From positions 124,001 through 188,000 of the forward strand of contig NZ_BAABIA010000010.1 of assembly GCF_039542385.1 (NCBI RefSeq): a stretch of 64,000 nucleotides of DNA. Reading direction: 5' to 3'. The notes under the pieces were generated by a model that saw only the letters and a list, made by a program, of their open reading frames with translations, was not told where the DNA came from and searched no databases. The DNA is from Prosthecobacter algae (GTDB lineage: Bacteria; Verrucomicrobiota; Verrucomicrobiia; Verrucomicrobiales; Verrucomicrobiaceae). Made by a program: the position numbers and the translations under genes. Shown here piece by piece: positions 2 to 52,590 of the stretch; position 1 is the first letter of the stretch; each line of letters begins with the position of its first letter.

Positions 2-316
2 ATCAAGATGGTGAAGGCTGCTAACAGCCCCTGGGCGGGCATCAATTTTGACAGCGGCAACTTTCACACAGAAGACCCGTATGCCGATCTGGCCAAGATC
101 GCCCCGTATTCCGTGAATGTGCAGCTCAAGATGGAAATCAGCCGCAAGGGGGCCGCCAAAGACGAGCATGAACCCAGCGACGTGGACCGTGTGTTGAAGA
201 TCCTGCGCGAGGCGAATTACCAGGGCTGGTTCACTCTGGAATACGAGGTGAAGAACACCGACCCGCTGGTGGAAGTACCGAAGATTCTTGAGATGCTGCG
301 GCCGAAGCTAGCTTGA
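2..316 (+). CDS. Sugar phosphate isomerase/epimerase, C-terminal part
   Basis: The reading frame is open from the window edge, so the N-terminus is missing. The visible 105 residues look like the last strands of a xylose-isomerase-like TIM barrel (AP endonuclease family 2 fold): a late-barrel segment with acidic and histidine residues (NFDSGNFHTEDPY) and the usual closing motif GWFTLEYEV followed by a helix. Such proteins isomerise or epimerise sugars or inositols. The stop lies two bases before the inverted-repeat element. If that element is set aside, the downstream MFS transporter would begin only about 17 bases later, so the two were probably one catabolic operon. The substrate cannot be inferred. 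Confidence 0.7.
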   Translation: MKMVKAANSPWAGINFDSGNFHTEDPYADLAKIAPYSVNVQLKMEISRKGAAKDEHEPSDVDRVLKILREANYQGWFTLEYEVKNTDPLVEVPKILEMLRPKLA

Positions 317-318
317 TA

Positions 319-372
319 GAAGTTGGCGATGGCTGAGCGGTGGCTGAACAATTGTTGAGCAATGGTTTAAGA
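319..372 (+). repeat. Left arm of 54-bp inverted repeat
   Basis: Pairs with 756-809 (49 of 54 positions identical after reverse complementing). Four degenerate 11-base units can be read in the arm, starting at 329, 340, 351 and 362, with consensus close to RTGGYTGARCA. In a plus-strand RNA the five mismatches would be four A-C oppositions and one G-U pair. Confidence 0.85.
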
Positions 373-383
373 GTCAGAAGACT

Positions 384-761
384 ATGAGAAAGCAGTTCCC
401 TTTCGAAAAACTGGAAGTCTGGCAGGATGCGCGCCGATTGGTTGGTGCGGTTTATGAACAGACGAGTTCGTTTCCAAAAACTGAGTTTTATGGGATCACA
501 AACCAGATCAATCGTGCCGCCGTTCCCGTGGCGAACAACTTGGCCGAAGGCTCAGTTCGCGCCAGCCTTAAAGATCAGGCCCATTTCTCCAATCAAGCCT
601 ATGGCTCATTGATGGAAACAGCATCGGACATGATCATCGCTACCGACCTGGGTTTCATTCCACCTGAGAAATCAGATGCAGTTCTCGATGCAGCTTTTGA
701 CCTTAGCGTCCGTATCAACAACCTCCGCGAATCCCAGCTAAGGCGCTCCCAAACTTCTTAA
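384..761 (+). CDS. Four-helix-bundle protein (23S rRNA IVS / S23 family)
   Basis: This 125-residue protein has the family pattern: FEKLEVWQDARRL near the N-terminus, FP..EFYGITNQINRAAVPVANNLAEGS in the centre, then HFSNQAYGSLMETASDM. Length and motifs match the TIGR02436/PF05635 four-helix-bundle family, whose members are encoded inside 23S rRNA intervening sequences and also as free genes. They form small helical oligomers; the related Avd protein of diversity-generating retroelements binds nucleic acid and reverse transcriptase, but no reverse transcriptase is present here. The 3' end, including the stop, lies within the right inverted repeat. By eye the gene is less GC-rich than its neighbours, consistent with acquisition. 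Its function in this setting is unknown. Confidence 0.85.
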   Translation: MRKQFPFEKLEVWQDARRLVGAVYEQTSSFPKTEFYGITNQINRAAVPVANNLAEGSVRASLKDQAHFSNQAYGSLMETASDMIIATDLGFIPPEKSDAVLDAAFDLSVRINNLRESQLRRSQTS

Positions 762-809
762 ACCACTGCTCAACAACTGTTCAGCCATCGCTCAACCACC
801 GCCAACTTC
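756..809 (-). repeat. Right arm of 54-bp inverted repeat
   Basis: Reverse complement of 319-372 with five mismatches. It overlaps the last codons and stop of the four-helix-bundle gene and ends 15 bases before the MFS start codon. A transcript running through would be able to fold into a long stem with the coding sequence in the loop. Confidence 0.85.
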
Positions 810-824
810 CTCCCTCCCCTCTCC

Positions 825-2294
<1,470 letters not shown>

Positions 2295-23679: not shown

Positions 23680-24108
23680 TCATGAGAACCGAGGCCGATA
23701 CAAAGGCAGATCATCCATCCAGGAATCATCAGGTTCATCAGGTTCATCTTCAACGGGCAAAGGATCGCCCAGAAACGGCAAAGGGTGCCTTGATGCCAGC
23801 CATGAGAAGCCGTCTTCCAACTGTTTGACGTGCCAGAGGATATGGCCGTTGGTCGAGTTGAGTTCTTCCACGCAGAAAGGAGGCAGCCAGATGGCGGTGA
23901 CCAGGCCATCGCCTGCCCAACCGCGTTCCAGCCAGCCTTTTTTCAAAGCTTCAATGAAGAGCTCCGCTTGCGACCAGCCTTGAAGCACATCCACGGCAGG
24001 TTTGAGGAAATCGTAGAAATCAATGTACTCGTAGAAGTAGAAATAGAAGCTTCCGACGCTTTCGGGAGCGCCATATTTCTCTTCCCACGAATCATCAATC
24101 GCATTCAT
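23680..24108 (-). CDS. Small acidic protein of unknown function, coupled to xylB
   Basis: 142 residues from ATG 24108, which overlaps the xylB stop by one base (TGATG), so translation is probably coupled; a GTG at 24111 is also in frame. The protein is acidic and rich in aromatic residues (FYFYFYEYIDFYDFL), with a middle part WSQAELFIEALKKGWLERGWAGDG and a proline/aspartate-rich tail. It has no signal peptide or membrane segment. I do not recognise the family; the composition resembles some immunity-type proteins, but no toxin gene is next to it. Confidence 0.55.
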   Translation of the reverse strand: MNAIDDSWEEKYGAPESVGSFYFYFYEYIDFYDFLKPAVDVLQGWSQAELFIEALKKGWLERGWAGDGLVTAIWLPPFCVEELNSTNGHILWHVKQLEDGFSWLASRHPLPFLGDPLPVEDEPDEPDDSWMDDLPLYRPRFS

Positions 24109-47111: not shown

Positions 47112-49556
47112 TTATCTCCGCATCACAAACTCATCCAGGTTCATCACCACATTGGCCACAGTGGTCCAGGCGGCGAGTTCGGCGATGTCTGCGTCTTTGG
47201 GGGCAGGCCCCAGGGGATCCGTGGCCATTTTCACGGCTTCATTCGGGTGGGAGCGATAGTCGGCCAGGGCTTCGTCATGGAGCTTTTGCAGGGTGCTGCG
47301 CTCCTGCGTCGTGGGAGCCCGGGAAACGCAGAGCTGGTACAGGAGGGCGATCTTGTCATCCACGCCCATCAGACGCCGGGCCATGGCCTGATGGGCCTCG
47401 ATGAAGACGGGGTCATTGAGCGTGACGAAGGCCTGGAGCGGGGTGTTGGTGCGGCCCCGGCGGACGGTACACACTTCGCGGTTAGGCGCATCGAAGGTGC
47501 TGAAGCTGGGGTAGGGGCTGTTGCGCCGCATCTCGGTGTAGAGGCTGCGGCGGTGCTTGTCCTCACCTTCGCTCAGCGTCCAGTCATTGCTGCGGCCAAA
47601 GGCGGTGGTCAGGCCCATGTTCGGGGCCATGGGCCGCACGGAAGGGCCGCCCATTTTGGCACTCAGCAGGCCGCTCACGGCCAGGGCCTGGTCGCGCAGC
47701 AGTTCACCCGTGGCACGGAAGCGGGGGCCCCGGGCCAGCAGGCGGTTTTCAGGATCGCGCTCATTGAGTTCCGCGTTGCTGCGGGAGTCCTGGCGGTAAG
47801 CCTGGGAAGTGACCATGAGCCGCAGCATGTGTTTCAGGTCCCAGCCTTTGTCCATGAATTCGGCAGCCAGCCAGTCCAGCAGCTCTGGGTGGAAGGGCAG
47901 CTCCCCTTGGCTGCCAAATTCCTCACTGGTGCGCACCAGGCCGATGCCGAACAAACTTTCCCACAACCGGTTGACGGTCACACGGGCTGTCAGCGGATTA
48001 TCATGGCTCACCAGCCAGCGGGCCAATGTCAGACGATTGCGGGGTGCCCCTGCCGGCAGGGGAGGGAAAGTGGCAGGTGTGCCTTCCTGCACCTCTTCGC
48101 CCAGGGCCTGCCAGTTGCCACGGAGCTGGATGTAGGTCTTGCGACGTTCCTTGGCAGGCAGGTCCAGCATCACAGGCACGGTGACGGGTTTGGTGCGGTT
48201 CAATTCCTTGTTCAGGAGATTAAGCTTGGCGCGTTCCGTCTTGGCTTCGGGAGCGACGAAACGCACGTAGTAGGTTTGCAGCGTCTTTTTCTGTTCCGCC
48301 GTGCGTTTTTCTGCCATCACGGCCAGGGCCTCGGCGGCTTTTTTGTCCTTGAGGGCAGGTTTGGTCGCCAGCCAGGCATCATAGCCTTTCATCCAGCCCT
48401 CGGGGTTTTTGGCAAACTGGGCCTCCAGCTTGGCGAGTTCCTGCTTCCATTGCTGGCGCTGCTGCTTCACTTCGGCGGGGAGGATTTCATGGAAAGGGGC
48501 TTCGTCCTTTTTGTCGGCATCGGCGCTTTGATTCAGGAAGGCATAGGCCTGGAAATATTCCTTGTGGGTCAGGGGATCGTACTTGTGCGTGTGGCACTGG
48601 GCGCAGGCCATGGTGGTACCCATCCAGACGGCAAAGGTGGTGTTCACGCGGTCCACCACGGCGGCGATGCGGAATTCCTCATCGCTGGTGCCGCCTTCGT
48701 TTTGCGTCATGGTGTTGCGGTGAAAGGCGGTGGCGATGAGCTGGTCATCGGTGGGGTTGGGCAGCAGGTCGCCGGCGATCTGTTCGATGGTGAACTGGTC
48801 AAACGGCATGTTCTGGTTCAGGGACCGCACCACCCAGTCCCGGAAGGCCCAGATTTCGCGTGGCTGATCGCTGGGATAGCCGGAACTGTCCGCATAACGG
48901 GCGAGATCCAGCCATTGGCGTGCCCAGTGCTCGCCATAGGCTGGTTTGGCCAGAAAGTGGTCCACCATCTTTTCGTAAGGGGCCTTTTTGAAGGTCTCCA
49001 GTTCTTGTAGGGTGGGTGGCAGGCCGGTGAGATCAAGGGCCAAGCGACGGATCAGGGTGGCCGAGTCGGCCTGCGACTGGAAGCCCAGTTTCTCTTCGGC
49101 CAGCCGCTTCAGCAGAAAGGCATCCACGGCACTGGTCTCGCTTGTCGGAGCTGCGGGGATGGCTGGCCTAACCACCTTTTCATAACTCCAGTGTCCGCCC
49201 CATTTGGCTCCTTCCTGGATCCATTGTTTGAGCAGGGCCACTTGCGCTGGAGGGATGACCTTGTGCTGCTTGGGTGGGGGCATCACCTCGTCCTTGTCGG
49301 TGGAGAGGATGCGTTGAAGGAGGGCGCTTTGGTCGGGGTTGCCCGGCACGATGGCCCGCACGCCTTCATTGTCAGCCTTGGCGGCCTTTTCATCGTCCAG
49401 CCGAAGGCCGGCTTCGCGCTTGGCTTCATCCGGCCCATGGCAGAAGAAACAGTTCTCCGAGAGGATGGGGCGGATCTGCCGGGAAAAGTCCACTGCGGGC
49501 AGTTCCTTTTCGGGGAGAACAGCCAGGAGACAGAAAATGGGAAGAAGCCGGGGCAT
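47112..49556 (-). CDS. PSCyt1-PSCyt2(DUF1549)-PSD1(DUF1553) protein
   Basis: 814 residues from ATG 49556 (MPRLLPIFCLLAVLP, a Sec signal); in-frame codons upstream do not fit. Near the N-terminus is a cytochrome-like CFFCH motif (Cys36, Cys39, His40) and the GLRLDD segment of PSCyt1. DUF1549 contains the PADFLAKPAYGEHWARQWLD-like [18 protein letters not shown] block and CAQCHTHKYDP near residue 318. The C-terminal DUF1553 has [18 protein letters not shown] and RRGRTNTPLQAFVTLNDPVF. These are predicted extracytoplasmic heme-binding proteins of uncertain redox role. It is followed by DUF1501 and divergent from a second PSD1 gene. Confidence 0.88.
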   Translation of the reverse strand: MPRLLPIFCLLAVLPEKELPAVDFSRQIRPILSENCFFCHGPDEAKREAGLRLDDEKAAKADNEGVRAIVPGNPDQSALLQRILSTDKDEVMPPPKQHKVIPPAQVALLKQWIQEGAKWGGHWSYEKVVRPAIPAAPTSETSAVDAFLLKRLAEEKLGFQSQADSATLIRRLALDLTGLPPTLQELETFKKAPYEKMVDHFLAKPAYGEHWARQWLDLARYADSSGYPSDQPREIWAFRDWVVRSLNQNMPFDQFTIEQIAGDLLPNPTDDQLIATAFHRNTMTQNEGGTSDEEFRIAAVVDRVNTTFAVWMGTTMACAQCHTHKYDPLTHKEYFQAYAFLNQSADADKKDEAPFHEILPAEVKQQRQQWKQELAKLEAQFAKNPEGWMKGYDAWLATKPALKDKKAAEALAVMAEKRTAEQKKTLQTYYVRFVAPEAKTERAKLNLLNKELNRTKPVTVPVMLDLPAKERRKTYIQLRGNWQALGEEVQEGTPATFPPLPAGAPRNRLTLARWLVSHDNPLTARVTVNRLWESLFGIGLVRTSEEFGSQGELPFHPELLDWLAAEFMDKGWDLKHMLRLMVTSQAYRQDSRSNAELNERDPENRLLARGPRFRATGELLRDQALAVSGLLSAKMGGPSVRPMAPNMGLTTAFGRSNDWTLSEGEDKHRRSLYTEMRRNSPYPSFSTFDAPNREVCTVRRGRTNTPLQAFVTLNDPVFIEAHQAMARRLMGVDDKIALLYQLCVSRAPTTQERSTLQKLHDEALADYRSHPNEAVKMATDPLGPAPKDADIAELAAWTTVANVVMNLDEFVMRR

Positions 49557-49683
49557 GGGGTCTGGGCTAAATACGCCGCTCAAGGGGGCATCTTCCCGGA
49601 TGTGCGAGGATAGTCCATTGGCTGAGCAGGGAGTTCCGGTAAGGATGGAAAGCTGGGGTGGGCCGTCATCGTTCTGAGAAGGC

Positions 49684-52590
49684 GTGAACCGTCTGTTGCT
49701 TTCTTTCTGCCTCCTGGCTTCTCCAGCCCTGGCGCTGGACTTTGCCCAGGAGGTGCTGCCGGTGCTGCAGCGCGCCTGCTTTGAATGCCACGGCGGCGAG
49801 GTGGCCAAGGCGGGCCTGCGCCTGCATGAGAAGGCCGTTGCGCTGAAAGGGGGAGAGCATGGGGCGGTCATCGTGCCCGGCCAGCCCGAGGCCAGCGAAC
49901 TTCTGCGCCGGGTCTCTCTGCCTCGGTCTGACAAGCAGGCCATGCCCAGGCGCGGGAACGCGCTGACCGCCATGGAAATCCAAGGGCTGCGCGAATGGAT
50001 CGCTGCTGGAGCCGTGTGGCCCGAGACGGTCTCGGCGGCCCGGCACTGGGCCTACGTGCCACCTGTGAAGCCGAAGCTGCCTGACACCCAAGGCCAGCAC
50101 CCGGTGGATGCCTGGGTGGGCGAAAAGTTGAAGCAGGTAGGCTTGACCCCTTCCGCTGTAGCTCCCGCGCATACTTTGGTGCGGCGCCTGTTTCAGGATC
50201 TCACCGGCCTGCCACCTGCTGAGGAAGACCTGGCCCGCTTTCTTCCAGATCTCCGGCTGCAAAACCTCTCTGAGGACACCTATGAAAAGCTGGTGGACCA
50301 CCTGTTGGCATCGCCAGAATTTGGGGTCAAGTGGGCACGTCATTGGCTGGATCTGGCCCGGTATGCGGATTCGCATGGCTTTCAGCGGGATGACCTGCGC
50401 GAGGTCTGGGGTTACCGGGACTGGGTGGTGGAGGCTTTGAACAAGGATATGCCGTTTGACCAGTTCACCATTGAGCAGATCGCCGGGGACCTGTTGCCCA
50501 ATGCTACTCCGGCACAGATCATCGCCACTGGCTTTCACCGCTGCACGCCGACGAATGTGGAGGCCGGAACGGAGCCGGAAGAAAGCCGAATCAACCAGGT
50601 GATCGACCGCGTGAACACCACAGGGGCGGTGTGGATGGGCAGCACTCTAGAATGCGCCCAGTGCCATCACCACAAGTATGACCCGTTCAGCCAGAAGGAT
50701 TATTACCAGTTGCTGGCCTACTTCAACAACACCGAGAAAGAGGCGGAACGCACCAACCCAAAAACGCCTGGTTCGATCCGGTTTGACGGCGTGCCTTACG
50801 CCATGTCCGACGCGGGACAGGATGAGGCGCGGGAGGCTCTAACCCAGCGGCTGAAAAGCGTGCAGGCTCGCCTGGCCAAGGCTGAAGCCGTTGCGTCGCC
50901 ATCGGTCCAAAACGCAGCGGGCAAGCCGTCGGTGAGGGTGCTGAAACCTGCCGAGGTGGACTCCGCCTCCGGCTCTGAGGCCGAAGTGCAGGGAGACCAG
51001 AGTGTGCTCTTCATCGGGGCCGTGCCGGATGTGGACACCTATACGCTGACCTATGATCTCAGCCCTGGCAGTGTCACTGGGTTCCTGCTCGAAGCCTTGA
51101 CCGATTCTTCGCTGCCTGGAGACGGGCCGGGCAGGGGTGATGCCACGCGGCCTAACTTTGTATTGCAACACCTGGAGGTCTCCGTGCAGGACACAGCAGG
51201 CAAGGTCTTGCCGCTCAGCTTTAAGCAGGCCTTCGCCAGCTTTTCCCAAAGCCGGTTTGATGTTGGCGGGCTGATTGACCAGGATCCGAAGACGGGGTGG
51301 GCCATCAATCCGCAGTTTCATCAGGCCCACTGGGCCGCCTTGGCCCTGAAGGAGCCGCTGGTGATCACGGCGGGCATGAAGCTGAAACTGAAGCTGGTGC
51401 AGGAGTTTGGTGCAGGCCGCATGATTGGCCGGCTGCGTTTCTCCGCCATGGCTGGTGAGGTGGAGGCCAGCCTCCCTGCGGTCAGCGCGCCCTTGGCCGG
51501 CAAAGCCCGCCCAAAGAACCCAGCCGTCGTGGCTCTGACGCGGGAAGCAAAGGCCCTTCAAAAGGAGCTGGAGGGGCTGAAGCCAGCGACCACCGAAGTC
51601 ATGCGTGAAATGCCTCAGCCACGCATGACCGCCGTTTTTAAACGCGGAGTGTACACTGATCCGGCGGAACCTGTGAAGGCAGCGACGCCATCCATCTTCG
51701 ACCTCCAGGTGAAGGGCCCGCCCAACCGCCTAACACTCGCCCGCTGGCTGGTGGCCCGAAACAATCCGCTGACGGCCCGCGTGACCGTGAACCGTTTGTG
51801 GGCGGAGATCTTCGGCCAGGGCCTTGTGACCACGGTCGAGGACTTCGGCATCAAGGGCGCGCCACCGTCTCATCCAGAGCTGCTGGACTGGCTGGCCGTG
51901 GAGTTCATGGATCAGGGCTGGAGCCTGAAGAAGATCCTGAAACAAATCGTCATGTCCCGCACCTACCGGCAGAGCTCCGCGTTCCAGGCTGGCAGCAGGA
52001 ATGCCGAGACGGATGCCGCGAATGTCCTGCTGTGGCGGGGGCCGCGCTTCCGGTTGGATGCCGAGGCTATCCGCGACAATGCTCTGGCCGTATCCGGCCT
52101 GCTGAGCCTGAAAAAGGGCGGAGCCCCCATCCGACCACCGCAGCCGGACGGCCTGTGGGCGAAGGTGGGCGGGCAGCAATACAAGTATGAAGTCAGCAGG
52201 GGCGAGATGCGTTACCGGCGCGGTCTCTACGTGGTGCTGAAACGTGGTGCCCCTTATCCCAGCTTCATCAACTTCGATGCCAGTGCACGCATGGCCTGCG
52301 TGGTGAGGCGCGGCCGCAGCAACACCCCGTTGCAAGCGCTGACCTTGCTCAATGACCCCGTCTTCGTGGAGGCCACGCAGGCCCTGGCAGCACGCCTGCA
52401 AAAGGTGCCGGATGTCTTGTCACGCCTTCGGTTAGGCTTTCGCCTGGTGCTGGCAAGGGAGGCTGCGCCGGAGGAGCTGGAGGTGATGCGTCAGCTTTAC
52501 GAGGCCCAGGTTTCTCAGGGAGAAACCAAGGCCTTGGAGGCTGTGGCCAGCGCCCTGATGAATCTGGACGAAGCCATCACCAAAGGGTGA
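49684..52590 (+). CDS. PSD1-family protein with PSCyt1/DUF1549 and inserted domain
   Basis: 968 residues from GTG 49684, with a Sec signal ([16 protein letters not shown]). CFECH (Cys32, Cys35, His36) and GLRLHEK identify PSCyt1. [18 protein letters not shown] and [12 protein letters not shown] (near residue 326) belong to DUF1549. A beta-rich insertion of about 150 residues (about 430-590: [21 protein letters not shown]) is lacking in the shorter paralogue and looks like a carbohydrate-binding or discoidin-like module. DUF1553 follows ([38 protein letters not shown]). It starts 128 bases from the divergent paralogue, and no DUF1501 gene follows it. Confidence 0.87.

Follow-up and report, generated by a model that had tools for sequence, protein, structure and literature searches.

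RAYT proteins (TnpA-REP) are HUH/Y1 nucleases whose gene lies between inverted short elements, and many gene-less hairpins of the same sequence are dispersed in intergenic positions. The STRRs of cyanobacteria, another kind of short repeat, date from 1990. STRR hairpins are found between hupS and hupL, without an assigned function in the excerpted report (PMC2670836), and for the GGGAATC repeats of Xanthomonas two genomes are reported to have 70 and 75 inverted pairs; these lie between co-oriented neighbours and have no role assigned in the excerpts of the paper (PMC4692102). The intervening sequence (IVS) in the 23S rRNA of Coxiella burnetii has, according to excerpts of its description, a 28-bp stem with three GACAGAT heptamers before the ORF and is excised by RNase III in vitro; its authors consider S23p probably not expressed and the ORF decaying (PMC4990558). 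Apart from this Coxiella paper, we found none in the open-licence PMC literature that ties PF05635 genes to repeats.

We analysed a 64,000-nt stretch of the Prosthecobacter algae genome (the window), in which a PF05635 gene lies between two inverted arms inside a protein operon:

2..316, + strand: 3' end of the upstream gene, xylose-isomerase-like (PF01261); host context, outside the element
319..372, + strand: left arm, made of 9 nt, four tandem 11-nt units and 1 nt
328-338, 339-349, 350-360 and 361-371, + strand: the 11-nt units of the left arm
384..761, + strand: four-helix-bundle gene (PF05635 / TIGR02436), 125 aa
756..809, + strand: right arm, an inverted copy of the left arm (49/54)
825..2294, + strand: downstream MFS transporter gene; host context, outside the element

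An earlier, sequence-only reading of this DNA had claimed a 54-nt inverted repeat around exactly one gene of the 23S-IVS family, set into a tight operon gap, and all of this was confirmed. The arms are complementary at 49 of 54 positions, and the enclosed gene scores 97.5 bits with PF05635 (cut-off 33.8), its sole Pfam match at E 0.001, and 88.8 bits with TIGR02436 (cut-off 24). The upstream frame ends with the stop codon at 314-316, 2 nt before the left arm, and 15 nt separate the right arm from the MFS start at 825. Absent from that reading was the tandem 11-nt build of both arms: the right arm consists of inverted units matching the four of the left arm, which are C-poor on the strand of the gene. 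The stop codon of the gene (759-761) falls within the right arm. A PDB relative of the protein is 2gsc_A (E 3e-18); this nearest solved structure, of XCC0516, is a homopentamer of four-helix bundles in the excerpted text of PMC4990558. Within the first 2.5 kb, the runners-up among inverted repeats measure 31 nt at 77%, an out-of-register match of these arms, and 21 nt at 86%. Elsewhere in the window, inverted repeats that are long but imperfect (97 nt at 75% and 57 nt at 70%) lie at 48889-50369 and may represent two related genes facing opposite ways, and 23726-23748 holds about 2.5 copies of a 9-nt unit without an inverted partner.

The element shares with the 23S IVS the protein family and the complementary ends that form a stem around an S23/PF05635 ORF. 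Unlike the IVS, it lies in a protein operon, has gene-less relatives and carries arms of 11-nt units. The single 23S match of its own genome covers 2845 nt over model positions 1-2925, spanning the whole model. With REP/BIME-RAYT systems it has in common one gene between inverted elements and dispersed gene-less palindromes of its unit, but the protein is a four-helix bundle and not an HUH/Y1 nuclease, and the arms are tandem arrays. The published heptamers, in excerpts of PMC4692102, likewise lie between co-oriented genes, often as inverted pairs; the unit here is 11 nt, not 7, although 7 is the commonest period of the family as a whole (33 of 54 armed loci in the wide set described below). 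The Avd protein of DGRs belongs to a related fold family, and two relatives gave weak NF033474/PF22296 matches; however, these scores lie far below the Avd cut-offs and the element has no reverse transcriptase. We consider, with a probability of roughly 60%, that the element is a gene-bearing member of an IVS-like and REP/RAYT-like class of dispersed hairpin elements. On this reading, its build is that of a 23S rRNA IVS located in a protein operon. We also lean, again by analogy, towards the view that the gene relates to gene-less copies of its repeat as RAYT genes do to REP hairpins. The sequence-only reading knew of no description of this form, but one exists in part: heptamers at the 5' arm and in vitro excision by RNase III had already been described for the Coxiella IVS (PMC4990558, in excerpt).

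We located the MFS gene in 46 genomes out of 48, and 27 loci were examined closely (G067 had no usable match). The isomerase adjoins it in 19 genomes, and the occupancy of the site between them was as follows:

Full element (12 genomes): G000 (the genome of the window), G003, G005, G006, G010, G018, G019, G024, G025, G057, G060, G061
Gene fragments (2 genomes): G034, G064
Arms only (1 genome): G065
Element absent (4 genomes): G007, G020, G063, G056 (in G056 a possible arm trace)

In addition, G059 has arms at a contig edge. The isomerase-MFS pair thus occurs with and without the element, the comparison that the sequence-only reading had proposed, and the claim of a discrete element is borne out by occupied, decayed, arms-only and empty sites and by the inverted flanks of family members in general. 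Since empty sites exist and free-standing family genes have such flanks, two of the three outcomes that it had named as arguing against an element are absent.

In quick trees with SH-aLRT support only, the MFS gene of the window groups with that of G019 (97), as does the isomerase (87). The element gene groups with that of G018 (100) and G019 is placed elsewhere. Between G000 and G019, the identity of about 82-97% in the flanks drops to 25-77% inside the element, and the fall begins at the arms. The conflict between flank and gene trees, together with this fall, indicates that the element was swapped as a unit between conserved flanks. For the element gene of G000 and G018, dN is 0.027 and dS, near saturation, is 1.53. 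Across congeners, the MFS genes that follow the element (825-2294 in the window) come from distinct clades that split deeply, with the isomerase constant, and the partner downstream has therefore changed.

PF05635 was found in 51 of the 56 genomes searched from the order, with five matches in the genome of the window, one of them below the cut-off. The 164 loci among the matches listed gave 129 family ORFs, 115 of them distinct and with usable flanks. The left flank was aligned locally with the reverse complement of the right flank, and loci scoring at least 30 were counted as armed. Among these listed order loci, 77 of 115 reached 30 and 58 of 115 reached 36, compared with 15 and 8 of 570 mismatched flank pairs and with none of the 313 other ORFs of these loci at either threshold. 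Together with the wide set below (54 of 79, from the top 80 among 585 or more relatives), this agrees with the expectation that free-standing family members have inverted flanks. At score 30, 38 of the 115 listed order loci are without arms, and the conserved site 1 has none either.

The arms are short tandem repeats whose unit varies by locus and also between elements within one genome. Clustering by tblastx over the 56 genomes, with the best member taken from each cluster, gave about 52 sites, an approximate figure since clusters 2, 5, 6, 8, 9 and 10 proved loose. Of these, 34 were armed at a score of at least 34, with periods of 7 (21 clusters), 8 (5), 14 (4), 11 (2), 10 (1) and 15 (1). Arm scores were higher within than between elements at nine of the twelve clusters, the exceptions being sites 1, 4 and 7; as this comparison for concerted evolution rests on loose clusters, it carries little weight. 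The gene-bearing elements hold stable positions across the genus, and the host operons differ from site to site and are mutually unrelated. Among the 115 listed order genes we found no recent jump of a whole element, and close pairs were nearly all orthologous by position, which speaks against strong mobility. The four-helix-bundle gene is under purifying selection at most sites tested (median dN/dS 0.063-0.106 at five sites), with less constraint at sites 1 and 7 (0.26 and 0.34). Site 1 (L004, G000:C7:26357-26662, and its orthologues) is conserved in 11 genomes, mostly without arms and under weaker constraint. At L023 and L158 the flanks are homologous and the four-helix-bundle genes between them share just 33% identity, which looks like two separate uses or refillings of the site.

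Such arms could be a mutational by-product, in which quasi-palindrome correction and replication slippage make arrays around a tolerant gene. Both processes are known, and the differences between arms are point changes and changes in the number of units. However, such processes would not be expected to spare all 313 other ORFs of the same loci, and we consider this explanation very improbable.

The recurrence extends far beyond the order. For the wide set, a scan of genome contigs gave at least 585 relatives, of which the 80 best were kept; 79 of these had flanks, 54 being armed at a score of at least 30 and 25 not. At this threshold, arms were scored for 11 of 467 mismatched pairs, for none of 79 shuffles and for 6 of 89 other genes; these six were three PF05635 genes, two GxxExxY genes and one PIN-domain gene. 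Armed loci come from Bacteroidota, Acidobacteria, Planctomycetota, relatives of Nitrospira, Chloroflexota, cyanobacteria, proteobacteria and Clostridia, and the single archaeal locus (Methanophagales) scored 29, just under the threshold. The period is 7 in 33 of the 54, 8 in eight, 14 in four, 9 in three, 10 in two and 15 in one, with three unassignable. On plasmids, 19 records were found and arms were present at nine of the ten loci examined, with none found at the locus on the Pseudanabaena PCC 7367 plasmid. On viral contigs, 26 of 34 loci, several of them near-duplicates, scored at least 30. The 5' arm is C-poor: G exceeds C at 56 of 62 loci in the order set and at 51 of 54 in the wide set. 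In a blastn comparison, the 23S gene of the window's genome matched none of the 80 wide loci (best 80 of at least 585).

Placement inside an operon, proposed for the element in the window, is supported as well. By a crude gene caller, the element gene lies in sense between two co-oriented neighbours (+[+]+) at 53 wide loci and 38 order sites. The other arrangements, -[+]+, +[+]- and -[+]-, were found at 9, 8 and 1 wide loci (71 callable of 80) and at 1, 5 and 5 order sites (49 callable of 52), so that elements are mostly sense and rarely antisense between co-oriented genes (53 vs 1 and 38 vs 5). Of nine annotated plasmid loci, seven are sense and two antisense, the latter in Nostoc edaphicum (nrdB/nrdA) and Calothrix PCC 7716. 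In two cyanobacteria the gap between cas6 and cas4 holds elements with different units.

The sense position, the stable positions across the genus and the purifying selection would all suit a domesticated regulatory cassette, in which the protein would bind the arms of its own element and adjust operon expression, and whose apparent spread would reflect vertical inheritance and recombination between similar arms. On the other hand, a regulator would hardly be expected in an unrelated host operon at each of about 52 sites in 56 genomes, to be lost and to decay as it does at the isomerase-MFS site, or to differ in unit between elements of one genome. We regard this alternative as quite improbable.

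The sense bias also bears on what happens in the RNA, where self-excision or a tuning of the transporter, as the sequence-only reading suggested, would be hypothetical. The fold prediction that the sequence-only reading had proposed gave a structure far more stable than its shuffles: region 300-830 folds at -192.4 kcal/mol (z = -7.1), and 0 of 100 shuffles were as good. Transitions in arm mismatches were G-U compatible in 98 cases and incompatible in 136 (p = 0.015 in the opposite direction), with 59 vs 77 in the order and 39 vs 59 in the wide set. G-U pairs are thus not preferentially tolerated, and in neither set does this test favour selection acting on an RNA stem. This lack of an RNA signature would agree with the mutational by-product.

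The element could nevertheless be IVS-like at the RNA level only, with RNase III cutting the stem, no action on DNA and gene-less arrays as slippage products; the repeats would be retained since a stem built of equal units stays paired after slippage. The stable fold and the sense bias are in line with this, as are the heptamers at the 5' arm of the Coxiella IVS and its in vitro removal by RNase III (excerpts of PMC4990558). The absence of G-U tolerance counts against it. It also fails to explain why gene-less arrays share the unit of the resident element and why the period depends on the enclosed gene, two observations given below, and we judge it unlikely.

Gene-less copies of the repeat occur in the genome of the window itself. 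A dimer pattern of the 11-nt unit had 11 matches there and its reversed control none, and the unit is found at four places outside the element:

G000:C14:8454-8559, between two genes (by eye): gene-less hairpin with a short loop, made of the window's 11-nt unit
G000, C2: small gene-less hairpin of the window's unit
G000, C4 and C6: single gene-less arrays of the window's unit

With a stricter 11-nt pattern over 47 congeneric genomes, G000 had nine matches, G018 five (two of them outside its element), G012 and G033 one each, and 43 genomes none. More than one match was found only in G000 and G018, the two genomes that have the gene type of the window. A related 10-nt unit occurs in 42 of the 47 genomes, with up to 197 matches and at most 10 in controls. 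Its median count is 47 in the 18 genomes with the matching gene type and 7 in 27 others (p = 0.0002), gene type being judged among the matches listed. Many 10-nt arrays were also counted in G002 (85), G008 (60), G021 (52), G067 (55) and G030 (51), which lack the gene type among those matches. A stricter array detector found eight arrays and no inverted pair in 464 kb of the window's genome; it undercounts, because it missed the degenerate arms of the window itself.

At the C14 site, which is also in an operon, the gene-less hairpins of G000, G019 and G034 differ in unit, and each resembles the arms at the isomerase-MFS element of its own genome. The G000 hairpin mixes new outer units with old inner ones. 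G064 has kept one arm, G009, G025 and G062 have a short gap with no hairpin, and G065 has other sequence. In G018 (L429) about 440 nt of unrelated sequence take the place of the hairpin.

A second gene family is packaged in the same way. GxxExxY genes (TIGR04256, PF13366, PD-(D/E)XK superfamily) are present in 47 of the 56 genomes of the same order sample, including that of the window (G000:C2:676797-677144). Inverted arms flank 26 of 30 of their loci (L395-L424), compared with 66 of 870 mismatched pairs. The 20 clear periods are 9 (14 loci), 8 (4), 10 (1) and 11 (1), and six are ambiguous or self-palindromic. A period of 7 or 14 was seen at 0 of these 20 and at 25 of 34 four-helix-bundle sites (p = 5e-8). 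Both families share their hosts, so the period follows the gene inside the arms, which suggests that the protein and not the host polymerase sets the unit length. The same difference within the same genomes further weakens the mutational by-product, which was already disfavoured.

In 400 kb of Nostoc mirabile we counted 116 arrays and 22 inverted pairs, of which only one surrounds a four-helix-bundle gene; some loops of the inverted pairs are long enough for other genes. Five of seven Nostoc elements with clear 7-nt arms have their unit among 104 gene-less 7-nt arrays, and the matched units include the commonest gene-less one. For period-7 arms of other genomes, 9 of 85 units were found among the Nostoc gene-less arrays (p = 0.0007). 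A MITE-like common loop for the gene-less Nostoc hairpins was mostly rejected, as the loops are mostly unrelated; there is one copied loop pair. In a sample of 369 genomes of the gammaproteobacterial class, GGGAATC three times in a row occurs in one (G445, eight matches). In that genome, inverted arms of GGGAATC type surround the sole PF05635 match (profile positions 1-64 of 106), whose neighbours resemble, by eye, biotin carboxyl carrier and biotin carboxylase genes. The four-helix-bundle family PF05635 is not named in the excerpts of the heptamer reports PMC4692102 and PMC4679880. Nostoc and the GGGAATC gammaproteobacterium suggest a link between the published heptamers and this gene family.

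Taking the element as a gene-bearing member of a dispersed hairpin class, we propose the following mechanism. To judge from its orientation, the element would be transcribed by read-through from the host operon. Following the IVS precedent, the arms would pair in the RNA and RNase III would cut the stem, so that the neighbouring cistrons would be parted and not damaged. The protein, a relative of a homopentameric four-helix bundle, may act in trans on arms or hairpins, because the gene type matches the dispersed arrays and the period is cargo-specific. It would help new hairpins form and retune existing arms to its own unit.

The phenomenon is real and broader than the sequence-only reading had proposed; it is a variant of the IVS-like and REP-like kinds, and possibly a class of its own. 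A more far-reaching proposal, tentative and taken as a whole at somewhat less than even odds, is a widespread class of mobile hairpins whose ends are inverted short-tandem arrays. It would carry small genes from two or more unrelated families (four-helix bundle, mostly with period 7, and GxxExxY, mostly with period 9), whose protein sets or reads the period. The resident gene would maintain and retune gene-less copies in trans, and the class would include, as members or as relics, the STRRs of cyanobacteria, the heptamers of GGGAATC type and the IVSs of rRNA.

Such a class would unite three things described separately and left unexplained: free-standing S23/four-helix-bundle genes, rRNA IVSs and dispersed heptamers. 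It would make the origin of the repeats testable, since for every type of repeat a resident gene carrying those arms would be expected. The arms would be a candidate substrate for the protein family, and gene-less copies may explain short repeats that were reported elsewhere without an explanation.
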